Below, in pieces: positions 39,790 through 64,000 of a stretch of 64,000 bases of DNA. This stretch comes from Polytrichum commune. Its lineage: Eukaryota > Streptophyta > Polytrichopsida > Polytrichales > Polytrichaceae. Both the position numbers and the translations under genes were made by a program. Location of the stretch: the NCBI GenBank assembly GCA_950295325.1, contig OX485803.1:45709554-45773553 (forward strand), read 5' to 3'. The stretch's first letter is position 1, and each line of letters starts with the position of its first letter. The notes beneath the pieces were generated by a model. That model was not told where the DNA came from. It ran no database searches and worked only from the letters and a program-made list of their open reading frames with translations.

Positions 39790-40132
39790 ATATGTGTTGA
39801 TATATGCTCATGGGAGGATCGTATGCCTTGCTCTTCGAGTGTTCTTTGAGCATGGTCCGACGAGGATGGAGCCTGAGCCCGCAGCGCAATCCACCGCTGC
39901 AGACACAAGGGCCGTGTGCAGCATATGCGGCGAAAGCCCGAAAGCCCAAAACCTCGAAGACACAAGACAAGATGCAGCCACAGCCTGCCACAAACAGGGA
40001 AAAACGAACGAGCGAAGCACAAATCTGAGGTGAACTCCAAGCACCAGCATGCACATAGGAGAGCTAACGGAAGAGTGGCACCAGACACAACATCAGCACA
40101 AACATCCCACAAGAAATAGCGTGCGAGAGGCC
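39790..40132 (+). mobile_element. LINE-like sequence left of the MULE insertion
   Basis: The CA- and GC-rich sequence ends exactly at the left copy of the 10-bp duplication (gcgagaggcc, 40,123-40,132). Its composition resembles the segment beginning after the right copy at 56,247 and differs from the AT-rich sequence before 39,790. It is best read as the interrupted 5' part of the LINE-like element to the right. No ORF function is assigned. Confidence 0.5.
40123..40132 (+). repeat. Target-site duplication, left copy (gcgagaggcc)
   Basis: The identical ten bases recur at 56,237-56,246, directly outside the right terminal inverted repeat. The length fits Mutator-superfamily insertion. Confidence 0.88.
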
Positions 40133-40187
40133 GGGAAAAGCTATTTTGCGAGCGGTGAGCGGTGAGCGGTAAGTTTTCTAGAATATT
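40133..40187 (+). repeat. Left terminal inverted repeat of the MULE
   Basis: It begins gggaaaagctattttgcgag and carries three copies of the heptamer agcggtg/a before ttctagaatatt. It pairs with 56,190-56,236. Confidence 0.87.
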
Positions 40188-41757
40188 GAAATTTTGTCAG
40201 GTGAAACATGCCCTATGGCCGTGGTGTAGAGCTAACTTTTGAAATATTTATTGACAAATTTATTGACAAAAAGAACCTATAACCGTGGTGGAGGAACCTA
40301 TATAGTATTTGCTTGCACCTTCTTGGAGGTTCATGATATTACCTGACCACGACAATTTCATGACAACCTCTAGCAATTTAGCAAGTAAGATTCCATCTAT
40401 TGTGGTGAGGGAATCTCCAAACCCCAATGCTGCAGGCCTCACACGTAATGCCCATGAAGACCCATCCGTTTGTATGTGTGTGTATATATATATATGAGCA
40501 TAAACTTAAAATGTTGAAAGAAACTTAAAGTAAATATTAAAGAAACTGAAAATGTTGGAAGTGTTTACAACATGTTCCTCTAACAACAACACCTTACTAT
40601 ATACCACTCAAATATAGATGGTTATTTAAGAAGAGCAATTGTGTTGAACATAAAACCTAGGATGATGTCCATATTTTAAGCACAAGCCTTCTTGGTTTAA
40701 CACTCAACACAACTAGGAGGTCTCGAGTCATCATTTAAAAAAATTAAATTCTTCACTTTGACTTATTATAACCTTTGCATCTCAACTTCAATTTTGAAAC
40801 ATGAAATAAAAAATTTCTTGGTTCTCAGTCGCTAGCCAAATGGGAAAATTATGATCCAATCCAATGACCACAATTCTATGTGAACTTGGAAGTTTTTGAC
40901 ATTAAAATTGCATATTCTAACCTCATTTGGAGTATATCTATGATCATGAATCTAAAGTAAATTATGTCTTAATAATTAAAAACCTAAGCGATATTAAACA
41001 ATAAACTTTTTGTCACCTTCAACTCATAGTATTGCCATAATGTTTGATCCTTGATTGGGATTAAAGTTTCCTGACACCTACTAAAGGGGAGAGCAAAGAA
41101 ACTAATTATCATGTAGAACATGTGAATGATTGGTCTAAACCCAATTAACACCTTAATCAAGATCAAAGACCTTGAATTATTCTAGTAGAATTAACTAGAG
41201 ATGGATCTATATGTACTAAAAGTTTGTTAGACCGTGTTGAAGTATGCAAGGGGAAGATATTCTTAAGCATACCAATGTCAAGTGTCGTTGGTGTACACTT
41301 TAGTCAACTTGTAGACCATTGTGTAATATAGGTGTGCACTTCATATCATTGTGGAACATACTAATGCCGAGATATTAGTAAAGACACTTGAATGCCAAAT
41401 TTCATGAGGTGACATTAATGGTGAGGTTGATGGTGAATTATTCAACCCAACATTCGCCTAAAATCGTAAGCAAGCATTGAAAAAGTATATGAAAACGATA
41501 ATAGAAGAATAGTGGAAACCCTTAAATTTCAAAGAGAAGGGTATGAACTAATAGGCCGATTATGGAATTAAGTGAACAATATCAGAAAACACGAAGTCAA
41601 AAGTTAACCTAAATCTGCAATTTTATATATGCAATCCCATAAATTCCGAAAGTAATACAAATACAATGAATTTCATGCGGAATGAGTGCACAAACTGAAA
41701 AACCAACGGAAGAAAAACCGGTATATTAGATAGTACACAGACATTCACATGAAGCTA
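40188..41757. other. Left subterminal region of the MULE, no gene
   Basis: AT-rich sequence between the left end and the 3' end of the methyltransferase gene. A piece of dispersed family A lies at about 40,600-40,830 (ataccactcaaatatagatg, then cttcactttgac on the other side), so a smaller element seems nested here. No coding frame is supported. Confidence 0.5.
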
Positions 41758-44700
41758 TTACATCAGATCCGAATCACTGTGATCACGTGATGATGAAGAC
41801 ATTCTAGAATCACTAATATATGCATCAGAGGAGGCCTGACCATCTGATTCTAAAGCTTCTATATCCAAAAACTCTAAAACTCTTCCCGGATGATATTTAG
41901 ATGTAAAAGTCTGATAAGAACCTCCAGCTAGTTGATTAGCAATAACATTTGCATATGTAGGAAGTTGCCAAGACTTTGGAGGGCTGGGATAGAATTTAGG
42001 GTCACAAAAAAAAGGCCGGTGAATAGGATAGCTCAATTTATCGCATCTGCAAATGCCAATGGTACCATGTTCATAACTCAACTTTAGAAGAAATGACAGC
42101 AAAAAACATAACACTGGTAAGAGAATTTGTGGACCATACTCACTTAGTAAACCGAGATCTCTTCACAATCCTCTCAACGGGAATATCTTCACCCTCAGGA
42201 TCCTCTACACTGGTGACACGGTCTTCAAGAGTGACTTCAGAGGCTGCTCTAGAGATAATCAATGGAGCAAGTATGGCCTCAAAAATATCTACATCAGCCT
42301 CTAATGCTGCAATGTGACGGTGCACATTGCGGCATGCATGAATGGAAGATCCTGCAAATAAAGAAGTTGGAAAAACTTAGTACAAAAACCACTATGAATT
42401 TTGTAGAACAAAACAATATTAACGATTAACCAACTGAAATGGAAGATTACAAAGACATACCGGTCGCTGCCGTGCAGTCTAGAATAATATCCCATGGGGA
42501 GCTACATGCTTCAATTAGCATTTGCATTAGAAGCACGGACTTTTCACGAGGCCCTCGCCATGGTGTGGATCCATTAGTTAGCTGGTCCTCACGAGAGACC
42601 AAGTTCTGGAGAATATCATCCCGTGCAACATCCACCCCATAAGGATCCAATTCAGGGACATGGCGAAATGAAAACTTCGATGCAGGTGACCCCGGCACGC
42701 TCCTGACCGCCAATGAAATACCGAACCTCATGGTCTATAATGTACCAGACATAAAGATCAATATTACTTTACAAAGTGAACAACAGAACTGCGTGAGTAT
42801 AATAGTTAGGTGGGTCTACACTCAGAACTACCTCAAGGATGAAATTGAAACTGAATGCGGTGATCAGAAAGAAGACTTAAGCTTTATCTTATAGTTGATG
42901 CTGGATTTATTGGAGATGTAAGATGAAGGCGGTTCATTCCCCACCACTCTTTCCGAATTGCAAAACCATACGATTTGCAATATCCAAGAATATTGGACTT
43001 CGTACTCATGCGAAAAGGGTGAAACAAAATAATTGCCCCGTCGTCGTGCAGATGTTCGTTGGCAAAGTCAAAGAGTGGTTGTAACCACTCTTTCGATTCT
43101 TGATTCCAAGCGGGAATGGACGACGGTGGGTTTGATATGCCAGGAACAAGAAGACCTTCCGGTATATCTGCAAGAATCAAGTCCAAACAGGGATGGTCAT
43201 CCGGAGAACCCTTGTAGTGCCGGGTTTTGTCTTTTGAGTGCTGCACAATCAAAGGACAACCATGTTTGGTGTTAAAATAATCCTCCTTGCTTTGTACATT
43301 GCCTAGTACTAGCCCTTAAATCAAACATATCTATACTCATTACTAACCTTATATAATACACAAATCTAACCTCTTATCAGGTTACACTTGTTACCCACAT
43401 ATCTAACCACAGATCAAAGTACCTTTATGACACCCATATTCAACCTCATATCATATTGACCTTATAACATGCGAATATAACCTCACATCAGATTGTACTT
43501 ATAACACACATATCTAACCTCATATCACACACATATCTAACCCGATATCAGATAACAGATATAGCCCAGATATCTAATCTCCCATCAGATTACAGTAATA
43601 TCACCCATATTCAACCCCAGTTCAGATAGACCTTACAACACATATATCTAACCTTAGATCAGATTACACTTCTAACAAACATTTCTAACATCATATCAGA
43701 GTACACTTATAACAAGCATATCTAGATATCAATATCTACTATGATTGTAGGTAGTAGAGTTTGAATACCAGAAAATGTGTCTCGGGACCGAGACACTCAA
43801 ACTCGGCCCTGGAAAATCAGAAATGTCTAAGCTTAAATCAGATTACCCTTATACCCACAATTGCAAACTAACCTCACATCAGTTTCACCTTAATACTAGC
43901 ATATCTAGACCTCACATCAGATTGCACTTGTAACCCACATATCTAACCTCACATCAGTTTGACCTTAATACTAGCATATCTAGACCTCACATCACATTGC
44001 ACTTCAAACACACATGTTTGGTGTCAAATCAAAGTACCCTTATACCAAGTAAATCTAGATTTGAATATCAAATATCATTGTAGGGTTTACAGTTTGAATA
44101 CCAGAAAATGTGTCTCGGGACCGAGACACTCAAACTCGGCCCTGGAAAATCAGAAATTTCTAAACTTGCCTCATATTACCCCAATACCCAAAATTGCAAA
44201 CTAACCTCATATCAGATTGCACTTGTAACCCACATATCTAACCTCACATCAGTTTGACCTTAATACTTGCATATCTAGACCTCACATCATATTTCAGAGA
44301 AGGTAGAATTCAGAGAGGGCGGGGATTTCACTTAAACAATGTTCCGACTAAAAAAGTTCAAAAATTAACATGACACCTCACCATTCATATTTCAACTCCT
44401 AATTTCCACAAACAAAATGGTACAACAAAACAAATGGCCGATTGCAAGCACAAAACAAATTGCCGAGTCCATTGAGGGCTCAGCTCGCACTCCACATGGT
44501 GTTTGGGTCCCGCATAAACTATACCCTACCAGCCTTACTCGTCAGATCCATGATTCGGTCCCGAAAAAAATTATGGCCGATTACTGAAATATGAAAAATA
44601 GTACCTACTGAATGTTCAATGTGGACCACATTGAAATGCATAAATTTAAATGCAAACATGTTATGACAAAATTAAGGAAGAGCAGTACCTTGAGCATGAA

Positions 44701-47700
44701 TCTTTTCAACTCGTTGTAGGAAGGGGTGAATTCCTCCGTGTGACCGCCAAGAACGTCCTCCATTGAGGCGTTGAGAATGAGTTCTTGAATATGGATCTCG
44801 AGCTCCTCCCCCGATGTCAAAATAGGAATTTGACTCAACTGCTCATAGGAGGAATTGCGTTTTGTTCCTCTAGAAAATGTTGGAGCATGAGAACCAGATT
44901 CATACGTTGGACTTGGAGCAACGGGACTCTTACCTTCTAGCTCAGAATGGGGGTTCATCTTCTTTTTCCCCTTCATGGTAGTCTTCTCCAATGATTTTTG
45001 AAGTTTTTCCATCTCTTTCTGTGCGGCTTTCTCCTCTGCTTCCTTTACTCTAAGGGCCTTCTTCCTATCCTCTTCTAGACGTCGGGATAGGGCCTTTGCC
45101 CTCTCATGCTCGTCTTCTATGCCCTGTAAGTCAATCATCTCAACACCAGATTCTCCAACTGCCTCCCTTGACTTCCTAAGTTCAGTTTCAAAGGAAGGAG
45201 TGAAACTAGGAGCATAGTCAAGGTACCAACCACCTCCAGTGAGATGTGAGGTTGACCATGTACGCTGTTGATTTGCTGAGAACATGCACGTGGAGTTAGA
45301 CCTGTCAAGCCATGCTGAGAGGAATATAGGGAGATCTTCTTTTGTTATTGTTCCTTTTGCAAGGAGCTCGTACTTGAAATACCTGCGGGAAAGACACAAC
45401 TCATCATTAAATACCTTGCAATTGACATAGCTGCCATATTAAAAACCAAAACACTATGCCAAATCAGATGTCACTAACTAAGCTTATATCAGATTACCCT
45501 CGCATAATATTACACTTATAACACACAAATCTAACCTCATATCGGATTGACCTTAATACAAGCATATCTAGAAATCACATTAGAATGCACTTATAACACA
45601 CATATCTAGCCTCATATCAGAGTACACTTATACCAAGTATAGGTAGATATCAATAGCAACCATGTTTGTAGGTAGTAGAGTTTGAATACCAAAAAATGTG
45701 TCTCGGGACCGAGACACTCAAACTAGGCCCTGGAATTTCAGAGATTTCTAGGCTTATATGAAACTAGGCCCTAACTAAGCTTATATCAGGTTACCCTAAC
45801 TAAGGTTATATCAGACTCCCCTAACTAAGATTATATCAGATTTCATTACCTAAGCTAATCTCAGATTGCACTAACCAAGCTTAAACCAAACTACCCTAAC
45901 TAAGCTTATATCAGATGTCACTAACTAAGCTTATATCAGATATCACTAACTAAGCTTATATCAGATTACCCTCACATCATATTACACTTATAACACACAA
46001 ATCTAACCTCATATCGGATTGACCTTAATACAAACATATCTAGAAATCACATCAGAATGCACTTATAACACACATATCTACTATGATTATAGGTAGTAGA
46101 GTTTGAATACCAGAAAATGTGTCTCGGGACCGAGAGACTCAAACTCGGCCCTGGAAAATCAGAAATGTCTAAGCTTAAATCAGATTACCCTTATACCCAC
46201 AATTGCAAACTAACCTCATATTAGATTGCACTTGTAACCCACATATCTAACCTCACATCACTTTGACCTTACTACTTGAATATCTAGACATCACATCATA
46301 TTTCACTGCAAACACACATCTCTACCCTCATATCAGAGTACCCTTATACCAAGTAAATCTAGATTTCAATATCAAATATCATTGTAGGGTTTAGAGTTTG
46401 AAGACCAGAAAATGTGTCTCGGGACCGAGACACTCAAACTAGGCCCTGGAATTTCAGAGATTTCTAGGCTTATATGAAACTAGGCCCTAACTAATGTCAC
46501 TAACTAAGCTTATATCAGATATCACTAACTAAGCTTATATCAGATTACCCTCACATCATATTAAACTTATAACACACAAATCTAACCTCATATCGGATTG
46601 ACCTTAATACAAGCATATCTAGAAATCACATCAGAATGCACTTATAACACACATATCTAGCCTCATATCAGAGTACACTTATAAGAAGTACCTGTAGATA
46701 TGAAACATTGCTAACTAACCTTATATGAGATTAAACTTATATCAATCATATATAACCTCATATCAGATTTCACATATAACCCTTAATACAACCAAATGTA
46801 GAGCACACACCAGATTTCACATATAACACAAATTTCTAACCTCATATCAGATTACCCTAATACCTCAAAGTGCATACTAACATCATATGAGAGTACACTT
46901 ATAACACACATATAGAACTGTAGTATGAAAGGAGAGAACTCACCGAAAGATAACTCTTCGGACAATCAAGTCTGTCCCGTTAAATCCCTCAAATTCGTGA
47001 GTTTTGTTAAAGGCCTCCTGCCCTCGGAAGAATGTGGGAAACGCGTTGTCCCATAATTTCATTCTACAGTCCTCGATGTATGCAACCAAGGTCAAGGGCT
47101 CGCTGGGTAGTGCAAAGTTGATAGCAAGTCTGTCTTGGCACAAAGTGTCTTCAAATATAATGGAAGCCTGATCGGATATCTGTATATACAGAGAGTGAAT
47201 ATGAACAAGAATTTGAGCAACATCGATTCATATATTGAAATAACCGTGAAACCAAGAGAAAGACCAATTAATGTAAGGGATCAAATCAAGTAACACCGAA
47301 CTAAAGGGTACATAGGGGATTATGTACTCACTCCTTCCCAAAAACATGCCTTGGCTAGGAATGCCTGCAATTTGTCCTCATTGGTGGGCTTGGTTGGCAG
47401 TTTGCGAGCCTCACGTGTTGATGAAGAGGAATTGAAATATTCCAACCATTTGATTTTACAAGCGGGTGATGATTTTGCAGTAGTGATCAACTGCAATTTC
47501 TCTAAGTTGAGCTCGGGTGCAATTGAGTTAAGAGTATAGTGACGCGCAATCTGTGACCCATAGAGCAATATATTAAGATAATGGAGATTAATGAATTACT
47601 TGAAAAATGTAGAATGGGTTTTAAAGTAGTGGACATACCTCCCGAAGCCATCCATCTGTCAAGTCTGGGTTTGCCACACAAACTAGTTTTGACATTTTCT

Positions 47701-50700
47701 TATGAAGTGCCTCGGCTCTCTTTGAAGCACCGACCTTCATGGCGGCTGCTTTTTCAGCAGCAGACACCTCTCCATCCGTTTGCTCAAGAAGTTGACGAAC
47801 GCCTTCATCTGCAGCAAGTGCCAGTTCGTGCTGGAAAAGGATTACCATAGTTAGTTTGTAATCAAACAACTGCGACAAAAAGGTCTTATGAAAGCACATA
47901 AAGAAACAAAAACATTCAAACATCAATTATAAATACCAAATGTTGAAAGGGATTAAATATAAGAGTAATCACATCATCAAGCATCAACATCACATCATAC
48001 TTGGAAGATGAAGCTCGTGAATACATGTAGATTTAATGAATACCATGTCTTCTTTGAAGTTTGAGATTTCTTGCACCTTTTAATGTCAGAGGGAGTCAAA
48101 ATATCTTGGTACTGTTCGAGCGGCATAAGTCCATACTTCTGCACCCTAAATAGAGTGTGAGCTGTGTTTGTCTTCACGTGAGAGTCTTCCGTATGTCTAC
48201 AAGTAACAATCATATATTAAAGACAAGAACAACATAATATATGTACATAGATGAAAACCTTAAAAAATGGACTTAAAAAACTTACTTGTTGATATTATGC
48301 ATAACTTGCATAACAATACCAATTTTTCCCTTGGTGTCAAGGAGGATGCTATCCACCAAAAAATGCCAGGACTCTTCTGTTTTGTGAAGTCGTTCAATAT
48401 GGTTCAACCAAGCCTGCCGCCTATGGTTGCCGTCACAAACAAAGAACATCAAATTCGTAAAACCGGCTAACTCTGGAACGGACAGAAGAAAGGAGTTGAA
48501 TTGTTCATTTTTGGCACTCCAAATAGGACCCCACGATGCCTTATCAGCCTCAGTAACCTCATGTGTTTTCCCTTCTTCATTTGTTATTGTCACATAAAAT
48601 ACCGAGGCACCCTCTCTATACCCATGCACAAACTCCTGCTCCAATTTAGCAAGATCACTTGGGAGAGTTGGCCTCACCATAGGCATGGCCAACATTCTGC
48701 ACAAGGGAATAGGGAACCTTGAGGAACTCAGGGGTTGGACTCTCAGTCGAGAAATCGTGGCAACAGAATTAAGTTTCTGTCGGGTCCTGATATCATCTTC
48801 ATCCCCTTCATATGGATCTCTATCTCCAAGCCCCTCTTCATCCTCATCCTGACCCTCTTCAGAATAGTCTAGAGAAAACAGAGAAAGAGCAGGAACATCC
48901 TCCATTGCGTTGTTCTCTACCTGCAAAATATATGTACTAGTTAATCAAGGAGAGAACATGAGCTCAGCTGCCATCAGTTATAAGTGTATGTGGTATTATT
49001 TGACCATCAAAAGACATGTCTCGGGACCGAGACACTAGTACTAGGCAGAAATATTCAACTCATGAAATAGTGATCCTTACACCGGATCACCCTCTTAGCT
49101 CACATTGCAAATTTACAATATATCAAATTACACTTATATCAGGTTACACTTATATCAGATTACACTCATATCAGATTACACTTATAGCCCCTAAAGTCAT
49201 AGTGAGGTGGAAGAGTTTGATAGTCTCAAATAGTCTCTCGGGACCGAGACACTAGAAATCAACTCTAAAATTCAATTTCAAACCTACCTATCCTTACAGA
49301 TATCAAACCTTAGATCAGATTACACTTCTAACAAACATTTCTAACATCATATCAGAGTACACTTATAACAAGCATATCTAGATATCAATATCTACTATGA
49401 TTGTAGGTAGTAGAGTTTGAATACCATAAAATGTATCTCGGGACCGAGACACTCAAATTCGGCCCTGGAATTTCATAAGTTTCGAAGCTTAAATCAGATT
49501 ACCCGTATACCCACAAGTCCAAACTAACCTCATATCAGATTGCACTTGTAACCCACATATCTAACCTCACATCAGATTGCACTTCAAACATAAATGTTTG
49601 GTGTCAAATCACAGTACCCTTATACCAAGTAAATCTAGATTTGAATATCAAATATCATTGTAGGGTTTACAGTTAGAATACCAGAAAATGTGTCTCGGCA
49701 CCGAGACACTGAAACTCGGCCCTGGAATTTCAGAATTTCTACGCTTACATCAGATTACCCTTATACCCAACATAGCTAACTAACCTTAGAAAACCTAACA
49801 CTTGTAACCCACATATCTAACCTCACATCAGTTTGACCTTAATACGTCCATATCTAGACCTCACATCAGATTTCAAGAACTCCAAGAACGACACAAAACC
49901 CTCACCTTCACCCTCAACCGTCAACCCTCCCCCTCACCAGAAATGTCTCCCTCGGCAGGTATAGGTGTCTACCTTATTTCATTTCACAATCTTGGATCTC
50001 CGAACACTATGCAAAAAAATAAAATTCAGGGTATTTTTGTGTGGGACAACGTACCTCTTCCCCGAATTGTTGTTCTTCATTGTCCATTCTTGCTTCGCAA
50101 AGATCACCTTTATCAGCGCCTTGATCGAATTCGCCAAGGATCTGTTAAGTGTATATGTCCGGTGCTCATTAGCTATGAATTTGGCCTTATACAGTGTTAG
50201 CATTTGAAAGACCCCTTACCCTAAACCCAAAACCATTCAAGTCACCAATTGATTACAATCTTTACAAACCTGCTCCTCACTTTGATATGATGTTGAGGCA
50301 CTGGAGGTTGCCTCAGGTTGAACCTGTGTCTGCGTCATTCCCTATTCCAGATACCCAAACCAAACCCAATTCACAATCCCCCACCAAACATAAAATACAA
50401 CATAAAGGAGCCGATACCATTGCCCACACAACAAGGGAATTTAGAGGGTCTCATCTGTTCCAACTATCCGTGATAGAACTTAACATTATGATTGCACATA
50501 TAAAAATTTCATTATGATTGCAGATAAACATCACCTCACTGCCCCCTTTGTCAACTTCGTTGTCTTCCTCCGATACAGGAAATAATACTACTGGAGCTAC
50601 CTCTGAAACATCAAACGTTTTTTCCCCTTTGGAACCTCTACCTGTGCCCCTAGAAGAATTAACCCCTCGTCTACCCATTGTTGTCCGCAAGTTGTACGGT

Positions 50701-50810
50701 GTTCCTAAGCTCCCTCTTGATTCTAACCTTTGCCTTCTCTCAATACGCCTCTGTTTTTCAATAGTCCTCCTAATCTCTCGATCTGCTCTCGCTCTCGACC
50801 TAGTGTTCAT
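41758..50810 (-). CDS. ParB-like / N4-N6 DNA methyltransferase-like fusion protein, 14 exons
   Basis: Exons 5' to 3' (minus strand): 50810-50535, 50341-50270, 50185-50055, 49968-49938, 48920-48286, 48196-48001, 47830-47639, 47550-47332, 47179-46944, 45382-44689, 43240-42893, 42734-42461, 42351-42144, 42046-41758. Every junction keeps frame, giving 1,266 codons. Domains: a very basic N-terminus (1-40); an acidic stretch (about 177-215); a ParB/sulfiredoxin-like segment with FFVCDGNHRRQAW (329-341); a Lys/Glu-rich coiled coil (about 750-800); then a beta-class methyltransferase order. A motif-IV-like ADIPEG (918-923) comes first, then REKSVLLMQMLIEA and the SAM-binding motif ILDCTAATG (1094-1102), followed by ALEAD (1117-1121). 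Motif IV lacks the usual [DNS]PP[YFW]. The donor of exon 11 reads ATAAGA instead of GTAAGA. Without splicing there, the protein ends after two more codons. DNA methylation is the family role; activity here is uncertain. Confidence 0.78.
43320..44310 (-). repeat. Satellite-like array in intron 10 of the methyltransferase gene
   Basis: Degenerate units of about 36-40 bases built on aacctcatatcagattacac and ttataacacacatatct repeat with changes through most of the intron. Two longer blocks carry the 20-bp palindrome. Confidence 0.8.
43777..49709. promoter_or_regulatory. Nine copies of a 20-bp palindrome, candidate protein-binding sites
   Basis: The consensus gtgtctcgggaccgagacac has 9-base inverted arms around GA. 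Copies: 43,777-43,796; 44,110-44,129; 45,698-45,717; 46,119-46,138 (one change); 46,414-46,433; 49,016-49,035; 49,233-49,252; 49,433-49,452; 49,690-49,709. All lie in introns 4, 9 and 10 of the methyltransferase gene and I find none elsewhere in the window. Two copies (49,016 and 49,233) keep the palindrome although the flanking repeat unit has diverged. A binding role is an inference. Confidence 0.6.
45420..46930 (-). repeat. Satellite-like array in intron 9 of the methyltransferase gene
   Basis: The same family of 36-40-base units as in intron 10, plus a run of ctaactaagcttatatcag units at about 45,770-45,965. It includes three palindrome copies and a longer duplicated block. Confidence 0.8.
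49050..49880 (-). repeat. Satellite-like array in intron 4 of the methyltransferase gene
   Basis: Units such as atatcagattacacttat and acccacatatctaacctcac repeat through the intron. Four palindrome copies lie in or beside the array. Confidence 0.8.
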
Positions 50811-51254
50811 CTCTAATAATATTGAAGCAAACAGATCTTATATATCATTGTCAACTCTGTCATAATTAACATCTATTCTCCATCATTATGTTCACATTTT
50901 GGATAATTGTGTTCATATTGGATTTAGATAATTAATCTGCATTTCCTTGATTTATTCCTCTGTTAATCCACACAACATTAATACACTACAATTGGCGGCA
51001 CTAAAACCTATTCTATATAATAGAATCCTGCCATGTCACATATTTGGTGGTTGATAATTAAAGTATTGACTATTATTGTAGTACATTCTTTTCCTACTTG
51101 AAACAGGGTGTCTAGCATTTACATAAATAAACATTGACTATTAATTGATCTAACATGTTATCAAATATTCGCGCATTGGTGTCTACCCTAGGTGTATATA
51201 ATACCCGATTGCTTGTACCCATTCCTTCATGTCATCTCATCATATTCTTCTCCA
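50811..51254. promoter_or_regulatory. Shared divergent promoter region of the two MULE genes
   Basis: The start codons of the methyltransferase gene (50,810, minus) and of the first open frame on the plus strand (51,255) face away from each other across 444 AT-rich bases. A TATA-like string tgtatataata lies about 60 bases before the plus-strand ATG, and tatatat-type sequence lies near 50,838-50,845. Whether one promoter drives both genes is unknown. Confidence 0.4.
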
Positions 51255-54200
51255 ATGGGTACTGACTCAAGTCTCCCAAACCCTGCTCCTTTAGGTTCTC
51301 CTAGTACATCTCAAGTTCACACCACGTTGTCCATCGATGGTTTCGCAGTTGTCAACAACATGAAGATTGACAACCCACCTGACTCCTCAGTTACTCCGGC
51401 GGTCGTGGTTCAGAGTCCACATGCACGGACTCCATCATTGCAAGCGGATGTTGCAACGCTGATAGAGGACTTGTCTACTTTACAGACTCATGCATATTCT
51501 AGAGCAGGGGTTATTAAACCGGGCACGTACTCTAGATCTGTATTAAGGAGTTTCCCACTTCCCAAATGACAGAAACTCGGTTGCGCAGGATGCACTGCAG
51601 TTCATAGTTTAGGGATTGACCATTGTCATAAACATGACGGTGACAAAAATGGCAAAGGGCCCCATAAGCGTCTTTGTCGTTAATCACAATGTAGCATTCT
51701 ATTGTTTGGGATTTATTATTGCAGAGCTACTATCATGCTCTCTACATTATTCGTGGCGGCCGTCATTCTTATGGCTTTATTTGCCAATATATATTATAAC
51801 CAACAATGTTTAGAATGTATGTCTGTTCTTGGTTTCTACTATTTGAAAACAGGTAAACATGACACCTTGTGAGTGTATATGATACGCCCACCTCTTTTGC
51901 TCTATTTATATTGGAATATTATGTTTGAAATAGATATCGGTTTCTTACCTATCTCGGACTTGCATCCAAAAATGGTTTTTCAGCCGTCTTTCAGCTTACT
52001 CTCCATGTCTCTCTATTATCTTCTGAAATTCTGCTTGTTGATACATAAATTACCAGTTTGCACTGTAATTTGTTCCCTCTTATATATTCATGTCATTTCA
52101 ATGTTCACAGTACTTGTTTTGTTCAGAGTTCTGTGGTATACTATGGCCCTGCTTCATGCTGAACCTCATTCTGTTCCGGTCCTCCTTCTATTAGGTGAAG
52201 ACGGTCATGCTATAGTCACTTGTGCAACATTGAGTTTGAGGTTTCAATATCGTGAGGTCACTATCTTTGTCGAAGAAGAAGCTTTTGACGATCATACCGG
52301 TCTAGTTTCACATGCAGTTCGTCAGACTAGAGTAGATAATGACGTCGGTACGTTCTGGTTGCTGAAGCCTGGAAAATATCGTGTATATGGAGTCTCAGAG
52401 TCTATGTTAGAGTGTTCGACTGAACTTCTAACACCTAAGGAGTCGTCCACTGTTAGCATTGAGAGACCAGTCCTGGCTAGGGTCAAAATTGAGCCCGGTC
52501 TAAATACAATATATGAGTTGAGTGATGATTCCGACGGCGATGTTGAATTCCTAAAATAAGAGAGGAAAGTCCCAGCTTCGCTCTCTCCACAAATAGTTCG
52601 CAAGGAAACAACTCCTCCTGTTAATCCGTCTCGTAATCCTGGTCAGTCCAATGTTGTGACAAGTCATGTTGTCAGTATCATTCATTCATTGATGCGCCTT
52701 GGAGCTCGTAAGCGGTCCAAAAGTGTGTTATCTCGAATTAACTTTGATGCGATCAGACTCCAGCAGGTTGATTACCTTCCCCCTCGTTACGATGGGGACG
52801 TTATCTTCAAATTTCCACCTTTAGGTGATCATGGCCAGAATACAAAGGCCAAGCTGCTTCGTGGAATGGATAGAAGGTACAATGGCCATGCTTGGTCTTG
52901 CACAATTACAACCAATATTCAGAATGATCTCAAGCTTTTGTTTCGTACATCTTCTTGTTTGGGCCACCTCCGTTGCGACAATCCTGTTTGTGAGTATCTT
53001 CGGCGAGACCACAGGACTTCCCAAGTGAATGAAACAAAGTGGGAAGGATTATCTGAGAAATTGTTTGAAGTAGGGTCCAAGCCTCCAACTGATTCGACCG
53101 TTGTTTGCAAATCATGTAACGTCCCTCCCACCTGTGTTGCTGTCTGCACTGCCAAGATCTACTATGTTACCGCGACACCTCACATGACGAGGGCTTGTGT
53201 GCACTTAGGATCTCACGACCATCCCGTCAAGTCAGGTGATCATCGGGACTTCATCGATTTGACAAACACCTTGATTGGGGATCAAGTCGAACGCACCCCA
53301 TCAGCCACTCGCTCCGCTATTGTGCTTGAAACTACAAAGGAAGTACTGGGCCCACTCCTCCTTGCTAAAGAAGGTGACCCACAAAAGATCTTGGAGTTGG
53401 ACGAGCTGCAAGTTATTTTCGATCGGTGTAAGCACCTCACCTCGCCCAACATTCGTAACGCAGTCACCACGTTCAGGACTATGCGTCGCTTTGGAGTCAT
53501 GGACAGTATTACCAAGTTACGTGGTGCTAGCAATTGGAGGTTCGTGCAGCAGAATAGGTTTCCAGGGCAAGGAGCGGACATGGAACAAGGTCTTTGTCTT
53601 CAAGATGTCTGAAGTTGGACTGGGCAGCGGAGTCGACCTGGTCAAATGAATGCAACCCGGTGGTGACTTGGAGAACTCCTGGATAATGTTTGACCATGTC
53701 AAACGGGTCAGGTCGTGGACGACAATAGCTTGCCATGTGTACGATTCCACATATTGCCGTGTCATGACCATCGCAGTATGCGACATGCAGTCTGAAGATG
53801 TTGCAGCCCAGTCAGTCGTATGGAAGAACCTGAACGCTCTCATGGCTCAATATGGAGTGGACAAAGTCAATTTTAAAGGTTTCATGGCCGACAGTGCCCA
53901 AGCCAACTGGAATGTTGTTCGAATCATTTACGGAAGTGGAAATGTGTCTGAGAAGATGGTGGATAGAGAGAGGACTTGTCTTTTCCATTGGACGCAGTCC
54001 TTGGAGAAACATACCAAGGCCGATATCCGTCAAGACCTGCAACATCAACATCGAATACTATGCCAGCAATACAAGAATGCAAAATCGATGGCGGAGGCCG
54101 AGACAAAGTATTTGGCAATTCGGGCATGGTGGATGTCATCCGGGGCAGCAACTGAACAAGGTCTACCTCGACTGGAGCTCTGGCTGGCCTTCTGGCATTT

Positions 54201-55876
54201 CCGTTACCGCCAATGGGGTGGATTTATGGAGTTGGTAAGTCTATGCTTCCCTCTATATTTCCTGTATAGTTCCCACTTTATGCTTCAACTACATTGATTC
54301 CGCCATTATTCTAATTCGGACTGTATGGGCATTGCAGGATCTAAGTGAAGCTGAACTAGCGGAAATGCCATCTTGTAACCTTGCTGAATCTATCCACAAC
54401 AAGTGGAAGCAACAATCTGGCGATCGGGGCAGCGACCTTCATGTGGCAACAATCGATGACTTCGTGCGTGCTTTCATGCAGTGCTCAGCATATTCCCAAT
54501 TCCTAAAGGAAGAGAACCCTGGAACTGGACCGTCGAAGGAGGAATTGAAGCTGCGGCGTGCTCAGAGGTCTGTCGTAAAAACAGGAATCTCGAAACCGCT
54601 GCATGAGGCCATCTTGAAGATGCCTGGCGGTGACGAGTGGTGCACCAGGACTCCCCACCTCGAAGGGGAAGAGGTATTTGTTTCTCTGAAGCGTAAACCG
54701 GATACTGCTTTCGGTGACGAACGTGAATCTCACAGGCCAGACAAGATCAGTATATCCCGACCACGCGTCCAAACCAGATCTGCCCGACTGAACGATTCTC
54801 CACCTCCTGTGACAACTCCAGATTCTCCCACAACTCCAGATGAAAACCAACCGCAATTTCCAACACACGACGCTCCGCAGCGGGTGGATCGGCACCACGT
54901 CACCGCGATTGAGGAGACATTATGCAACCCTGCCCAGTGGCACATCGCACGGCTGCCTAAGACATCTGCGAAGGCTTGCTTTGCTCTACAAGCAATCACC
55001 AAGAAGAAGTGCGTCGCTCGGATTGTACAAGACGGGAAGAGCACCGCTGCACCTACCTACTCAGGCCTCATGGATAACTATCGGAAGAAGAGATTGGACC
55101 CTCAAGACTTCTTTTTCTGCAATGACGACATTGAGAGATGCGTTAAGGGTACAAAAAGGAGGTGGGTGGTCTCAGTCCCGAACGTTCCGGAGGTATGGCC
55201 GGTTAAGTTGGGGACCAACTTAACTTGCAAAGAGATCCTGTCTTTAGAAAACGCAGGATTTAGACTGCCCCAGCGGAAGGAGATGACACCTTCCAGAATT
55301 TTTCAGGACCACCCGTTACCTTTGGACTTAGCAAGCTACACGACTCCTGCATATCCGGATGAGTTTCCCACCCGGCGTTCAGGGAAGTTGATTAGGCGCA
55401 ACAAGAAGGCCCCGTCAACAAAACACGCCAATAATTGTGCCTCAGCCCTATCACTGAAAGCCAAAGTGCACAAACTGTGCATGCTTCCAGCCCCTGCCTT
55501 AGGATGCATCGTCTCCTTGGATTCCGGCACGCCCCCAAAGGTTCAGCAATACTACTTGACGATTTTGCAGCTGCCAACATGCACTTGTCCTAACTTCAAG
55601 GACATGGCGACTAAAGCAATTGGAAAAAGGGGTCAATGGGCCAACTGTAAGCATTTGTACTATTTGTTTACTGTAGTCTGTGGTTTGGACTCAGAATCAG
55701 ACACGTTCATTCATGCAGCTAGTTTTAGCTTCAACGAAGTGAAGCGAGTTTTGGAGGGTGGTTTGCTGAAGTACCTTGACTTTAGAGTTTTTTGTTTCTT
55801 TAAAGTAACATATGTATGTAAGATTTGTTATAATCATGATGTAGTGAGACTAAAAGGGCCACTACAAGACATTTGA
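51255..55876 (+). pseudogene. MULE transposase with zinc-ligand clusters and SWIM finger, disrupted
   Basis: A first open frame (51,255-51,569) may be an N-terminal exon. The main coding part runs from about 52,135. Zinc ligands occur in RCDNPVCEYL and ACVHLGSHDHPV, a pattern of the WRKY/GCM type seen in some MULE transposases. The transposase core follows: SGVDLV, WIMFDHVKRVRSWTTIACHV, MADSAQANWNVV and RTCLFHWTQSLEKH. After a clean intron (54,235-54,337) the C-terminal part ends with a SWIM finger (CTCPNF to NCKHLYYL). Lesions: in-frame TAA at 52,557, a one-base frame change near 53,545-53,560, and TGA at 53,647. The protein would have cut and joined the element's ends. This copy probably cannot make it whole, unless unrecognised splicing removes the lesions. 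Confidence 0.82.
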
Positions 55877-56189
55877 CGCACCACATGTATTTCGTTGTTC
55901 CAAAGTTGCGTGACCTTTTTAGAGTACCACTAATTCTCATTATACTGAAACAATACGTGTTTGACTTGAGACAAACCCATATTTATTACTGGTATTAGTT
56001 CCAAATGTTCAATTTAACACCCTAAACCATATTTTTCACTGATACAATAACCATTTTTCATGTATCAGAGCCCTTAATTGTCCACGGTCATAGGTCACAC
56101 TGTTCACTAAGTTTAGAAAAACTAATTACTAAAAATAAATTTAGTCCAACAATACCATAAATTTACTGCTTAAAATAACATTTTAATCA
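55877..56189. other. Right subterminal region of the MULE, no gene
   Basis: AT-rich sequence after the transposase stop up to the right inverted repeat. It should contain the transposase 3' UTR. I see no other feature. Confidence 0.5.
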
Positions 56190-56236
56190 AAATATCTCGG
56201 AAGTTACCGCTCACCGCTCGCAAAATAGCTTCGTCC
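56190..56236 (-). repeat. Right terminal inverted repeat of the MULE
   Basis: The reverse complement starts ggacgaagctattttgcgag and matches the left end apart from one missing heptamer and a few substitutions. Confidence 0.87.
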
Positions 56237-56246
56237 GCGAGAGGCC
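56237..56246 (+). repeat. Target-site duplication, right copy (gcgagaggcc)
   Basis: Identical to 40,123-40,132 on the far side of the element. Confidence 0.88.
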
Positions 56247-58593
56247 CTCAACTTCATCTTTCCACAACTTTATTAGGGCTAGTGTTCTATACACTTATTT
56301 GCTCAATCCTAACCTACCCAGCAACTCTGTACAAGAACTACCCTAACTACACCAAGCGTCTCCATCTCCCACCCCCACCGCAAGATGTGCACTCTCCACC
56401 GCGCTCGCCGGCCACAACAACAACTCAAATCTGGAATGATGAGCACCGCCACAAAGCGAATCGCCACGGATGGAAGCAAGAGAAATCCCTCAGCGAACGG
56501 CAGCTCCAACAAGCACAACACACCAACACATACACAACCACCACCAAGCATGAGGTCAAAACTGCCCCGATCATACAAAGGTACCTCCAAACCCTAACCT
56601 CCAAAACCCTAAACTTCACAAACTTGTGCTACTTCACCACACAACACTCATACAAAACTGGGTTATAGAGTACGCACAAAAGGCGACACCGTTCCGCATC
56701 TACAAATCAACCATACAAATCAAACGCGCACAACAATGCACACAAAGCCCCCCACACAATTCTAACATACAAAACAAAAAGTCACACAAACCTTCCAAAA
56801 TCGACAGCTAGCCACCTCCGCCCGCCTCCAACTCGCATCACGACGCTTGCTGGAATGGGCAACCAACAAGCCCCAAACTGCTACTAACACTAGCCACCAA
56901 ACTCAAACACAAACATCTAACAAACCAAGAAAAACCACACAACACTTCACACACCGCCTACCACAACAACTAACCACACAACACCACCCATGCGCTACTC
57001 ACCAGCACCGAAGGAAATCTGATCATCACCCAAGCATAGCAACCAAAACGCTGGAAAACACTAGAAACATCACACAACAATATTACAAACATAAGAGACA
57101 CACCCAAGAAAATCCCCTACAACAATGCACACAAAACGACCCAAAAAAAACCTACACACAAGGAATGAACAATAAAAGAACCTGCACACAAAGCACAAAC
57201 AAGGAAAGGGCACATACCTCCATACGCCCCAACCAAACACCTCCCACCACTGCGTGATCATATCCTCCCAACCGAGCAAGGAGACCACCGAATGCTACGC
57301 CGCCCACCAACCTCACACTCCCACACACCGCAATAATAAGACCAACCCCAAATCACAAGAGCCCACCACATAGACACACAGTGGCTGTGCCCCACAACCT
57401 CCTAAGAAATCACATCGAATAGCAAAACCAGGGACAAAGCTCGAGCAACCACTGCGGAGATCGCATAGATAACAATAGAATTCACTAGACAGTTACACAA
57501 CAAGGAGGAAGCAGCCAAAAGACACTCAATTCGACCCCCACCCACCCAAGCTACACACAACACAAATACATTGCCACTATTCACTAATATAGCCACACAA
57601 AACATTCATTCAATAAATTCCACTCACACACTAGACACATGATACACAAACCATACAAAATAGACTCAGAACATTCCACAAGCCAACCGGCGCCACCCAC
57701 AAACTGCCATAAGCAATCAACCAACCTAGCAAATCCAAGAACCCACTAGAACGCCCCCAAAAAAGCAATCACAGACACCCGAGTAAATACCCACATTAGC
57801 ACTCACAAACCAGTACTTAACACACCCACACTCAAACCCAACAACACTCACTCAATCTCTCACCCACTCAAACTCACACACACCTCTCTCTCTTCGCATT
57901 ACTCCCCCCACCTCTCCACCTCTCCATCCCCACTACCCCCCTCACCTCATCTCACCACCCATCTCTCATTGCATACATGCATCCTTCCACACCACAATTC
58001 CCATCTCCCCATCTCCCCCTCTCATCCTCTCTAGCCTACTGCACACACTTCTCAATACCTCCCACACAACACTCCACACAGGTCCCCCCAAGCTAACCCC
58101 CTGCGCACGTCGAAGCAACAAGCGAGCAGACACCACCAGTACTCGCAAAGCTGTTGTTGCCCCCTACCGCACCGAAGACGGAGAAGCTGACGACACCCCC
58201 AACCAAACCAGAGGCGGAGTAGCTAATGACACCCCCAGTAGAATCAAAGCCGAAGTAGTTGCTGATGCCCCCAACAACACCGCAATCGGAGTAGCTGCTA
58301 CAACACCCGCCTCTGCAAACACGACCACACCACAACTCAACACACCAACGTTCGCATACCCCCCAACACAAACAGGACGAAACGAGACCAACCCCGACAC
58401 AAAGACGAGCTCCCTAGACACAACAACGCCACAAATCAAAACCCGGCAACAAGAAAACCAACGCCGACACTGCACCTCGCATCGCTGTAGGCCTAGGCCC
58501 CGACCCCGAGTACTAAGTAGCCGCCCACCCACAAGACCAGGGACACCGACAACAACAAAGAAATCGAACCAGACACAGACACAATCAAAACCA
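56247..58593 (+). mobile_element. LINE 5' region, CA-rich, right of the MULE insertion
   Basis: Long AC-rich, G-poor sequence without a stable reading frame. It leads into the gag-like frames at 58,594. Together with 39,790-40,132 it looks like the 5' untranslated part of a LINE that the MULE entered. Confidence 0.5.
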
Positions 58594-60427
58594 TTGCAGA
58601 CAAGGCAAAATCAAACCCGAACTCAAGAAACCAACAGCAAAAGCACACGGCACCAACACTACACCAAAAACCAACAATTCTGCGAAGACACGCCTCCTGC
58701 CCGGCCTCAACGACGCTCTAATACCCAAGGTAACCCCCTGTCCCATCCCTTGGCAGTCATGAATCAGCACACAAGCATGTCACAACCACCAACAATCAGC
58801 GACCAGTACAACGAATTCTGGCAACAAGTACTAGCTCAGCCGCCACTCCCACACCCATCCCAGCTCTCAAATCACACGCCACAAGCTCACGACTTGGATG
58901 CCGAAGAAGACCTTGATATGGATGCTCAATTGGAGAATGTATCGCTAGAAAGAGGAGGTAGCTCACTCCAATTGACTTACGAACGCAACCCACAACAATC
59001 CCCCAAAGCCACACTCTTCAAAACAATGCACAACACCGAGAGCACACCTCCAACACCTCAATACCGCAACCCAAGAATCGAAGACGCATCGGAGAGCCAA
59101 ACTACCAAAAGAAGAAAGGCGGATGACTTCACCGTAACATCTACACCCGGCATTCCACGCAAACCACAACACCACCATCAAACACAAATGTACGAAGGAT
59201 GGCCACCCTTGGCATTGACATGATGGGATGCATGTGGCTAGGATTCCAAATGCACGAAATGCTAGCTACACAAAGAAGGAGAAACGCATCGACGAAGAAT
59301 TCACCACCGTCAACACACCCGCGAGCGAAATCCAAGAATTTTGTTCACTAAGGCGAGCATTCCCACGGGTCGAGCAAACTCTCTACCCCATTGAACGACC
59401 GGATGCAGTACCCGGCCAACATCTACACTTCACACAAATACCCATGTACGAGAAGACATCTCAAGCCACGGGCCTCACCGAAGGTTTCCATGTCACCATC
59501 CGATTAGATGGAGAATACAAGAAGCTTAGCCGAAGGGAGGTCAAGACCGCATGCATGGAACGACTCCAGACTATGAACATACCTCTTGGGACCACCTACT
59601 CCAATTCCATAAACATAGGTATCAACACGGTCACAAGGAATTGGGCCGGATTCATCAAAATTCACCTTCAAGATCCCAACCGTGATGGCCTAGCTCTACT
59701 CCGAGGGGACTGAGCATTTATCATGACAATGGGGGATGGGAAAAAAATCATAGGAAAGGTGGAGAAAGGCTTTGAGCTCGTCACGAAAGCGAAGAATACG
59801 AGACTCCATCTCAAAGGCGAAGCCATCCGCAACAACATGGCCCTCGACATACTTCGCAACCTCATGCAACGCTCATACTACGACGGAAGGGAAATAGAAA
59901 TCCTATCCCTCACCAAGGCGGGAGTAGAGAAGGACTTCGCCTTCAACATCCTCACCACCAAAGAAGCTCGAGATGACATCCTCAACAACGGCCTCACATT
60001 CCAATCCAAACGGCTCAAAGTAAGCATTACCAAAGACAAGGATTTGGGCAACCCATTGGAGCTAAGGATTAACACTACTTTAGTTGCTAACAACTTGCCA
60101 CAATGGGAGTTTCAATCAACAATCACCAAATCCCCAAAGAGATTGTTCGGAGAGAAGAACATCACCGGGGTTACCTTTGGACACAAGACCAACCAAGACG
60201 ATGACCGCCAAGCCGGATGGTGTCACATACAATGCTTGAACGCGGCGGTCTACACAGATTGGCTTCACAAGTCTACATATATCCTCGGGAGGCGTGTAAA
60301 CTTTGTCCCGCACAAGGGAAGTATCGACGGCACCGCACTGAATCAAACCGCTATCCGACTAGCACAAGCCCCCGTGCGAGAAGTCATCGCTCAAAAAACA
60401 CATGCTATGAGGGGGAGCATCATATGA
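58594..60427 (+). pseudogene. LINE ORF1 (gag-like, RRM-type) with frameshift and stop
   Basis: An N-terminal Gln/Pro/Asn-rich frame runs to 59,223 (possible start MNQHTSMSQPPTISDQYNEF at 58,759). A second frame, shifted by one, runs 59,228-60,427 and is interrupted by TGA at 59,711. It contains FHVTIRLDGEYKKLSRREVK, then FAFNILTTKEARDDILNNG and KRLKVSITKDKDLGNPL, which resemble RNA-recognition-type folds of plant LINE ORF1 proteins. ORF1 products bind the element RNA. The frame ends where a degenerate transposon end begins (60,411). The fold assignment is an inference from pattern only. Confidence 0.6.
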
Positions 60428-61990
60428 GCGGTGAGCAGTGAGCGATGAATAGTAAGCAGTAACTAATGAGCAGATTAGGGTGAGAAAAATTCAAGAAACA
60501 TACCCATCACCGTGGGTTTGGTATCCTATTACCACATATTTGTAGCTCAAATATCAACAGATGTTACCTGCCGAAAACTAACTTGCCAATTGATTGTTCC
60601 AATTCATACGAACATTTGAAACAATGATGAAAGCTATAAAACAATGATGTTGTGGAAATCATTAGGGTTTAGGGATTTTAGACAATGGTCATACAAATCA
60701 CTCTTAGTGGTTAGGATTTAGGGTAAACTAGATAATTGCCACGCAAAAACAAAAAACATGTGCACATATATACCAAGTCACGTGCAAGACCTCTTCATGT
60801 ACCTTTATTTTATTTTATTTTATTATCTATTATTCTCCTTATTATTACAAACACGAACATTACATTCCTCTGCCTCTATATTCATAAATGCCAAGATATA
60901 AATATCATAATGTTTAAATCTACTTCGCCTTGAATGTGTAATGACGGTTGCTGACCGTATCACCTCAGATTCGGTATACACAGGGAGAATCAATTAATGA
61001 AGGGGGGACATCACTTCTTTTATTTTTCTACACACAATATCCAAAAATGGTAGAAACAATTGGTAGAAGACTAAATAGTCCAAAAAAAAACCAAAATTTT
61101 TAAATTATTCAAATCAACAAACTTACGTACTCAAGCGAGATTTCTTTGGAACTTTTTGAATAGACTCGTCATCATCTTCGCATGCCATGTTAATTGATTG
61201 CAAGCTATGGATAATAGGAGGTGACAATGAATCACATAAAGAACGTTATCCCAAACCACATCACCCAATTGTGGTAGAATGTCATAAATTCATTGATGGC
61301 ACCTTCCTCCAACTAAAAATTAGAATTCACATATAAAACGTTATGTCAAATAACTATTTTAACAAATAAAAACGTTATATAATAATTAAATAAATTTCAT
61401 AAGCATAAATGCATTTACAATTATAATTCATAATATTATTTGAGCCCAAAATGATATTTTCACCAAACACAAATCAAGGTCATTGTCTATAAAATTTGGA
61501 GGCAAAAAATGCAAAGCCTTGCGTGTCATCGGAGATGAATTCCACTACTTCAGCCATTTTACTTTATACATGCCATCTACCGGAGTTGTTGCAATTTTTT
61601 GCAATTTTTCCAAGGTCATTTCTGATTTAGGATTAGAAATCCAATGCCCATTTACTTGAAAAAAATATTAAATATAAAATACGCAATGAAATAAAACATA
61701 TTACAAAAATCAAACGAATAATATAAAGACTTATCTCTTTCACAAAATCAACGCCATTTGCGGGATCCGCAATTACAAGGACTTTATCAAACTTTTTTAA
61801 CTCATGTGCCTTCACTGTTTTCCTCACCGTATTTGCCATAGTCTCCAATTCAAGCCTAGGAGATCTTTGGGCCAATAGAATGTTGTCCCTGCCCTCACAA
61901 CATGCCTCTTCTGATGCCACTACAACATTACGATTGATCACGCTAGACTCCTTGTCAATATGAAATACATAGGCTACCCACAAGATGCGG
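60411..61990. mobile_element. Degenerate relative of the methyltransferase-carrying MULE
   Basis: gggggagcatcatatgagcg at 60,411 resembles the end gggaaaagctattttgcgag. It is followed by a decayed run of the same heptamer (agcggtg agcagtg agcgatg). Downstream, on the minus strand, is a pseudogene related to the methyltransferase gene, in the orientation expected for a left end. No right end or target duplication was found, so the element is truncated. The rest is AT-rich. Confidence 0.5.
61490..61985 (-). pseudogene. Fragment related to exons 7-8 of the methyltransferase-like gene
   Basis: The minus strand encodes MANTVRKTVKAHELKKFDKV followed by LVIADPANGVDFVKE, matching in order the exon 7 segment ALHKKMSKLVCVANPDLTDG. 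It then encodes TLEKLQKIATT, YKVKWLK, WNSSPMTRKA and LVKISFW, matching exon 8 (NLEKLQLITT, CKIKWLE, FNSSSSTREA, LAKACFW). Between them the donor reads ATAAGT and the acceptor CAA rather than CAG, and a TAG interrupts the second part. It is clearly inactive but shows that the gene family was present in more than one element. Confidence 0.7.
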
Positions 61991-61999
61991 TAGCCCTAG

Positions 62000-63250: not shown

Positions 63251-64000
63251 TACCGTGTTACAATCAATGCCCAAATAATTGCCCTACACATGTCATACCA
63301 AACACCCTAAAAAATGCATACAAAATACAAACCACAACATACACACAAGAACAAGAAGACACAACGCACACCCCCCACCACGTCCACCACCGGAATACCC
63401 AAAACCACCCCCGCACATCTAAAAAATCCACATACAATTCCCCATACACTCTATAATAAAAGACCGCCCCCACACTTACAAAGATAAAAACAAAATTATG
63501 AAAAAATATACATCCTACTTATGTCAATGGCTACTCCCAAATGAAACAATATATAACAAGTGGCTCCCCCAAAAAGACTTGTTCCCATGAAACAACCAAA
63601 ACACCATAAACCATAACATCCTACTCCTAACGCAATATTATACTCACAAACAAAACCAACACTTCACCAACATCTTACAATTAAACTTCGATGAAGAACA
63701 ATTGAGAGTCACTAGATACATCCCCCCGCCACAAGTCATATCCCTATGTCATATCCATATTAACGAATGTAACCCAGATAATGACATCGCCCACACAAAA
63801 CACCATTAAAAGCCAACATGGTGTATCACACATCTACGACAACGATGGTCGCTACTTAATTACCATCCCTGAGCAAAGACTACAATGATTATGGGAAGAA
63901 TACCAAGATGCATTAAACAAACCACATAATCTAGAACTCCCCATACAATCATTTGAAAAGGAAGTTGCATGGTTGTACAAACGATATAAATATAGAATGC
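63251..64000 (+). pseudogene. Further decayed LINE ORF2 sequence up to the window edge
   Basis: CA-rich sequence with broken frames. Near the end the pieces ITIPEQRLQ, LWEEYQDALNKP and SFEKEVAWLYKRYKY suggest a continuing ORF2 linker before an RNase H domain outside the window. No intact gene is supported. Confidence 0.45.

Follow-up and report, generated by a model that had tools for sequence, protein, structure and literature searches.

A 64,000-nucleotide stretch of the genome of the moss Polytrichum commune (contig OX485803.1, positions 45,709,554 to 45,773,553; hereafter the window) contains a DNA transposon with two genes placed head to head: one resembles a transposase, and the other is predicted to encode an accessory protein of 1,241 residues, in which a ParB-like domain and a charged linker would be followed by an N6/N4-amino-methyltransferase-like domain. 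Palindromic sites are arrayed in the introns of the accessory gene. We propose, with a probability of about one half, that the transposon recognizes itself by means of the accessory protein and these intron palindromes, in an anti-silencing or self-marking role similar to that of VANC. The accessory protein, as a dimer, would bind the palindromic sites within the introns of its own gene and load there; the loaded protein would protect or mark the element, which would stay expressed and mobile, as VANC does for VANDAL elements. We infer both that the protein binds the palindromes and that this binding opposes silencing. A two-domain transposon protein of this kind has already been published for algae, and what is new here is the palindromic sites in its introns.

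The accessory gene lies on the minus strand, from an ATG at 50810 to a stop codon ending at 41758. Its 13 exons and 12 introns (Table 1) give a frame that is open over the whole join, with a single terminal stop. The initial annotation, which described a spliced fusion of a ParB-like and a methyltransferase-like domain, was right about the coordinates, the strand and the open frame, but counted 14 exons. Along the protein, residue 308 begins DGNHRRQAW, and DIPEG (motif-IV-like, 894), PWRGPREK (1043) and DCTAATG (motif-I-like, 1071) come after it in this order. Two doubtful exon joins, those of exons 5 and 10, were decided by comparing genomic copies. Exon 5 ends with FTSFIFQ before a GT in 19/19 listed copies, of which a few have stops within this exon. 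The exon 10 donor is GT in 13/13 close copies, and also in the distant copy L028, at a different position. Since exon 10 precedes AT in the window and GT in the other copies, the window copy has lost the splice donor of intron 10; its transposase gene is broken as well. A cryptic donor for exon 10, assumed in an initial splice model, was discarded on the comparison of copies. In the Ceratodon protein P0122, exons 10, 11 and 12 are joined at the same points as in our model, and in P0002, a 2,790-nucleotide contig that could be RNA or DNA, exons 4 and 5 are contiguous and the intron is absent.

A search of the genome (408 Mb, 64 contigs) with exon 4 gave 1236 candidates and 150 scored matches. 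Exon 4 was followed by exon 10, in this order, in 14 of the 20 copies fetched; the stretches read for the other six (L010, L012, L016, L020, L022 and L026), some of them shorter, had no exon-10 match and were counted as misses. The exon order is also kept in distant copies, where exon identity is 22-43% to the window in L028 and L032, and 35-54% to L028 in L036. In L028 and L032, exons 5 and 6 were missed with the window peptides and found with the L028 peptides. Because most exons recur in order in copies as distant as L028 and L032, the gene is far beyond chance: it is real and forms one unit. The joining of the ParB-like and methyltransferase parts in a single gene, as initially annotated, is thus borne out by the 14 copies, and by L032 and L036. 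Exon 4 of the L015 copy is about 5.5 kb away from a further distant member (L030:1700-6900, exon 4 at 38% identity), in which most exons are in order; this arrangement suggests that elements of different subfamilies are nested or lie next to one another.

Between subfamilies, purifying selection acts on both the ParB-like and the methyltransferase parts. The ratio of nonsynonymous to synonymous divergence (dN/dS) was measured by the Nei-Gojobori method against the window, for L014 and more distant copies with a computable dS. In exons 4-5 it was 0.06-0.26; exons 6-8 gave 0.08-0.40, exon 9 (a single copy) 0.09 and exons 10-11 0.09-0.14, and exon 10 of L028 gave 0.21, near saturation. The measure is noisy where the compared half is nearly identical, reaching 1.35 in exons 10-11 of L024; exon pairs with gapped alignments were left out (among them exon 4 of L016, L020, L021 and L023), and L016 has no exon-10 value. 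In L014, L015, L017, L018 and L019, dS is low in exons 4-5 (0.15-0.30) and high in exons 10-11 (1.5-1.8); L024 and L025 show the opposite, with exon 4 at about 2.6 and exons 10-11 at 0.01-0.06. Given this discordance, the two halves seem to have been exchanged among subfamilies. The data suggest that the exchange took place around the intron between exons 9 and 10, which in the window also holds palindromic sites.

The palindromic site, GTGTCTCGG-NN-CCGAGACAC, occurs nine times in the window, five times without and four times with one arm mismatch: introns 3, 8 and 9 hold four, three and two sites, respectively. With up to 3 mismatches, the same palindrome was found nowhere else in the whole window, and a related core, TTCGG-TC-CCGAA, lies at about 44554 in intron 9. 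Recurring palindromes with 7-nt arms were absent from five control stretches (1-38000 in four pieces, and 56237-64000), from the transposase half of the element and from 100 first-order resamplings. In an unseeded search, 19 of 28 loci, and also the window, had a palindrome that recurs at least twice, and L018, L024, L026-L028, L032-L034 and L036 had none; not all loci are separate, since those in each of the groups L009/L029/L033, L015/L030 and L028/L031/L034 overlap or are parts of one element. Arrays of imperfect sites are carried by L018, L024 and L026, and one L031-kind site each by L028 and L032. The commonest palindrome of each locus centres on CGG-NN-CCG; this centre is not shared by a minor palindrome of L014 (3 copies) and another of L031 (2 copies). 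Compared with the window consensus, 18-20 of the 20 inner bases, about half of which are fixed by the seed, are kept in 10 of 17 other loci, and 10-17 in the remaining seven; the flanks of the ten loci match at 13-25 of 60 positions in eight cases, at 56/60 in L010 and at 42/60 in L012. More distant copies have other palindromes: GTTTCGG-GG-CCGAAAC in L025, CCCTCTCGG-AA-CCGAGAGGG in L035 and ATCCCACGG-AT-CCGTGGGAT in L031. The sites are therefore kept among related subfamilies while flanks and spacing change, and are replaced by other palindromes in distant ones.

Profiles were built from the copies for the ParB-like part (A2) and the methyltransferase part (A1). A full-length search with the single protein sequence gave no significant match among 7,999 scored candidates; with A2, 574 proteins matched at E<=1, and with A1, 136 matched at E<=0.01, the best 120 of each being listed. 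The matches listed include the hypothetical proteins P0121 (61%) and P0122 (66%) of the moss Ceratodon purpureus. Many close relatives among them sit on short contigs, which may be DNA of mosses from metagenomes of soil or peat. Viral contigs searched with exon 4 contained no relative.

The window protein reads CDGNHR, and GNHR is invariant in 8/8 rows of the A2 alignment. Comparable motifs, DGQHR of DndB, (I/V)DGQQR of GmrS and FG(S)GCHR of sulfiredoxin, are described in or near the ParB/Srx fold (PMC4619093). In a structural model, GNHR is predicted between a strand (159-162) and a helix (168-179), with a predicted local distance difference test score (pLDDT) of 56 around residues 161-170; a prediction from exon 4 as a single sequence was uninformative (pLDDT 37). 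The phage ParB-like family phrog_1033 matched weakly (E 0.17-0.39; best E 0.17, 2/8), and was outscored by unrelated families such as phrog_32984 (0.0074) and Phage_tube_C (0.0035, 5/98). A weak DUF1015 match (6/98, best E 0.061) was considered as a pointer to the ParB superfamily and set aside, as it finds no support in the relevant text of PMC4619093. With homology resting on the motif, we call the domain ParB-like and not ParB. The combination of a domain of DNA-binding type with palindromes arrayed in its own gene suggests self-recognition by a dimer.

Several observations weigh against this interpretation. No ParBc profile match was obtained in Pfam for 98 members or for single exons, no ParB was found in the PDB by profile and sequence or in NCBIfam, and the moderate structural model (pLDDT 56, predicted template modelling score 0.50) matched no PDB structure. 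When 4 mismatches are allowed, the sole extra match of the palindrome in the window, at 24321 (4 mismatches), is outside the element. Among the other copies, L027 and L036 have no clear array, and L028 and L032 have single sites, the stretches read not covering all their introns. The contribution of the seed to the comparison of sites with flanks counts on the same side. Finally, the palindromic site might be read by the transposase or by a host factor instead.

It is quite possible, if short of even odds, that the system is a eukaryotic self-recognition resembling ParB-parS, with a ParB-like/pseudo-methyltransferase protein and its intron palindromes co-diverging by subfamily, and each protein marking or protecting only its own copies. 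The likeness of the half-sites to that of the window falls with the identity of the ParB exon (Spearman 0.63, p 0.009, 16 non-independent loci with L027 omitted). The trend is loose, since the half-site is unchanged in L020, L021 and L023 at ParB-exon identities of 75-77%, and this too counts against self-recognition through the sites. We consider it doubtful that the transposase or a host protein reads the palindromes, or that these are no more than fast-evolving intron repeats, while the ParB-like protein acts otherwise, for example as an NTPase or a nuclease; such activities are reported for some proteins of the ParB/Srx fold (PMC4619093). The introns are rich in tandem repeats, which are able to spread by themselves, and some copies have no array in the stretches read; against this, the site is kept between subfamilies while flank and spacing change, and the sites of the window occur only in introns of the accessory gene.

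Beta-class amino-methyltransferases have the motif order IV, X, I, and the active enzymes combine a motif IV of the form (D/N/S)PP(Y/F/W), ahead of motif I, with a GxG in motif I that binds S-adenosylmethionine (SAM). The order IV then I is present in the accessory protein. The nearest solved structures to profile A1 in the PDB are DpnA (5hfj, 4.1e-9) and CcrMI (6pbd, 8.7e-6). PF01555 (N6_N4_Mtase) matched the window row of joined exons 10-12 at 28.1 bits, against a cut-off of 26.7, and all 7/7 A1 members, with a best E of 2.1e-9; exon 11 alone (E 0.029) and, marginally, the Ceratodon protein P0122 (25.2 bits) were below the cut-off. The catalytic DPPY was found in 0/14 copies with exon 10 and in 0/7 A1 rows. 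The window reads DIPEG, and the first D of the motif-IV position is retained in 12/14 copies. In motif I, L032 and L036 carry GxG, and the window, whose subfamily lacks the first glycine, reads ATG. As judged from these alignments, the canonical catalytic motif is absent, with a conserved DxPE-like motif in its place, and the SAM-binding half appears to be kept. The replacement of DPPY favours a non-catalytic or altered domain, which would bind SAM or DNA and not methylate. That the protein is an active enzyme, writing N6-methyladenine or N4-methylcytosine on its own transposon under the guidance of the ParB-like domain, as proposed for the algal proteins (PMC12477816), seems unlikely to us for want of DPPY in any copy or row, even though this published suggestion is joined by the PF01555 membership, the proximity of DpnA and CcrMI, the purifying selection on the domain and the GxG of L032 and L036.

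Several points of the initial annotation can be judged from these domain comparisons. It had named DGNHRRQAW as the hallmark of a ParB-type fold: the motif is there and is modelled between a strand and a helix, but neither the ParBc profile (PF02195) nor a PDB structure backs the fold. The order IV then I that it gave for the methyltransferase part was confirmed, and this part matches PF01555, the family that it had named for a check.

The element that carries the two genes spans 40133-56236 (16,104 bp), and its 26-bp terminal inverted repeats are perfect. It is flanked by identical 10-bp target-site duplications, and a second copy (contig C4) has identical ends and its own 10-bp duplication, ATTCATCGAA. 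Mutator-like elements have target-site duplications of 8-11 bp (PMC6446971), which together with terminal inverted repeats agrees with both copies. The transposase was not recognizable, by Pfam or PDB sequence comparison, as that of a Mutator-like element, in which a SWIM finger is frequent. As the transposase is unplaced, the element, large and abundant, is called Mutator-like by its ends only. The first ATGs of the two genes are 444 bp apart. Open pieces of the transposase-like gene in the window are 51192-51569, 52137-52559, 52560-53612, 53650-54237 and 54338-55876, broken relative to an open 662-residue frame of L034. Neither these pieces nor two open frames of L034 matched a Pfam family, and there was no PDB sequence match; DDE-like and SWIM-like (CxC...CxH) patterns were noted by eye only. 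The gene is kept in the C4 copy, and occurs beside the distant L028 gene at 45-73% identity. Searching the genome with the L034 frame gave 2,270 candidates and 67 scored matches. When 149 ParB-like places were entered, 40 of the 67 lay no more than 25 kb from a ParB-like exon, and 38 of these 40 were in head-to-head orientation; the addition of 15 selected places raised the linked matches to 43/67 and left the head-to-head ones at 38. In 500 rounds of random placement with the larger list, the linked matches averaged 1.5 (maximum 7) and the head-to-head ones 0.34. A gene that lies inside a transposon with ends and duplications, head to head with a transposase, is an accessory gene and not a domesticated one. 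The initial annotation was thus correct in placing a spliced gene inside a plant transposon, and we reject its other suggestion, the domestication of a prokaryotic ParB-methyltransferase module as a host gene, as highly improbable given the transposon ends, the duplications, the transposase linkage and the 150 scored matches (1236 candidates) in one genome, although the gene is rich in introns and under purifying selection between subfamilies.

The closest published system is Sola1-1_Ec32, a brown-algal transposon of Ectocarpus, which encodes a ParB-like and methyltransferase protein of 1,104 residues on the strand opposite to the transposase; similar proteins are stated for green- and red-algal transposons (PMC12477816, citing its references 50 and 51). 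As in Sola1-1_Ec32, the moss protein combines a ParB-like part (here by motif only) with a methyltransferase of N4C/N6A type, on the strand opposite to the transposase of a giant DNA transposon. This likeness is by description only, and the window element differs in its moss host, its 10-bp target duplications and its degenerate motif IV. The passages of PMC12477816 on the Sola1-1_Ec32 protein do not mention palindrome arrays specific for subfamilies, and they name no target sequence for the algal proteins; the moss family supplies a candidate, the palindrome, with the subfamily variants as controls. Neither a land-plant case of the two-domain transposon protein nor a palindrome array was found among the top-ranked open-access literature.

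VANDAL elements are listed among the Mutator-like elements (PMC6446971). Their VANC proteins have proven binding and demethylation activity, and the targets are short motifs (YAGTATTAY, AGTTGTCC/AC), not palindromes, in repeat arrays that extend into introns and differ between related elements (PMC5735166). The moss gene resembles VANC as an accessory gene of a plant transposon with family-specific motif arrays in non-coding DNA, introns included. Unlike those of VANC, its sites are palindromic and their binding is deduced, and the account of VANC in PMC5735166 does not describe it as ParB-like or methyltransferase-like.

In bacterial ParB-parS partition, a protein with a G-x-x-R-type motif acts on palindromic sites near its own gene. 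The moss transposon has such a motif and such sites; unlike ParB-parS, it has no known partition role, and no ParA gene was noted, though none was searched for. DpnA and CcrMI share with the moss protein the motif order and a significant profile match, and differ from it in having DPPY where it is DxPE-like, and the first glycine of motif I that is missing in the window subfamily. If self-recognition through the palindromes is true, a DNA-marking module of bacterial type would serve as a transposon passport in land plants, as an independent parallel to VANC. That the domain has lost DPPY and yet stays under purifying selection raises the question of what role a methyltransferase domain has once its catalytic motif is replaced.

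Table 1. Features of the transposon and its two genes, in window positions.
Feature	Position	Strand	Basis or remark
Left target-site duplication GCGAGAGGCC	40123..40132	.	identical to 56237-56246
Left transposon end: GGGAA + 26-nt terminal inverted repeat (40138-40163)	40133..40163	+	same end in L033
Exon 13, conserved C-terminus and stop	41758..42046	-	gene model, copies
Exon 12, methyltransferase domain ends here	42144..42351	-	gene model, alignment
Exon 11, PWRGPREK and motif-I-like DCTAATG	42461..42734	-	gene model, alignment, Pfam
Exon 10, motif-IV-like half of methyltransferase domain (DIPEG); donor AT in window copy	42893..43240	-	
Palindromic site, intron 9	43777..43796	.	
Palindromic site, intron 9	44110..44129	.	
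Exon 9, charged linker, likely coiled coil	44689..45382	-	gene model, copies; coiled coil judged by eye
Palindromic site, intron 8	45698..45717	.	
Palindromic site, intron 8, one mismatch	46119..46138	.	
Palindromic site, intron 8	46414..46433	.	
Exon 8	46944..47179	-	gene model, copies
Exon 7	47332..47550	-	gene model, copies
Exon 6	47639..47830	-	gene model, copies
Exon 5, ParB-like region ends here	48001..48196	-	gene model; donor GT in copies
Exon 4, ParB-like domain with DGNHRRQAW	48286..48920	-	gene model, 8-row alignment
Palindromic site, intron 3, one mismatch	49016..49035	.	
Palindromic site, intron 3, one mismatch	49233..49252	.	
Palindromic site, intron 3, one mismatch	49433..49452	.	
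Palindromic site, intron 3	49690..49709	.	
Exon 3	50055..50141	-	gene model
Exon 2	50270..50341	-	gene model
Exon 1	50535..50810	-	gene model
Divergent transposase-like gene, first ATG 51255, broken in window copy	51255..55876	+	
Right transposon end: 26-nt terminal inverted repeat (56206-56231) + CGTCC	56206..56236	-	same end in L029
Right target-site duplication GCGAGAGGCC	56237..56246	.	identical to left duplication

Two neighbours of the transposon were also noted in the window. A reverse transcriptase of the type found in long interspersed nuclear elements (LINEs) is located at 62092-62739 (RVT_1, E 2.2e-10). With upstream open reading frames it spans about 56250-63250, next to the right transposon end, so that a LINE edge may have been the place where the transposon inserted. 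On the other side, the open reading frame 34978-36057 matches DUF4005 (PF13178, E 3.1e-5) and presumably encodes a plant IQ-domain (IQD) protein.

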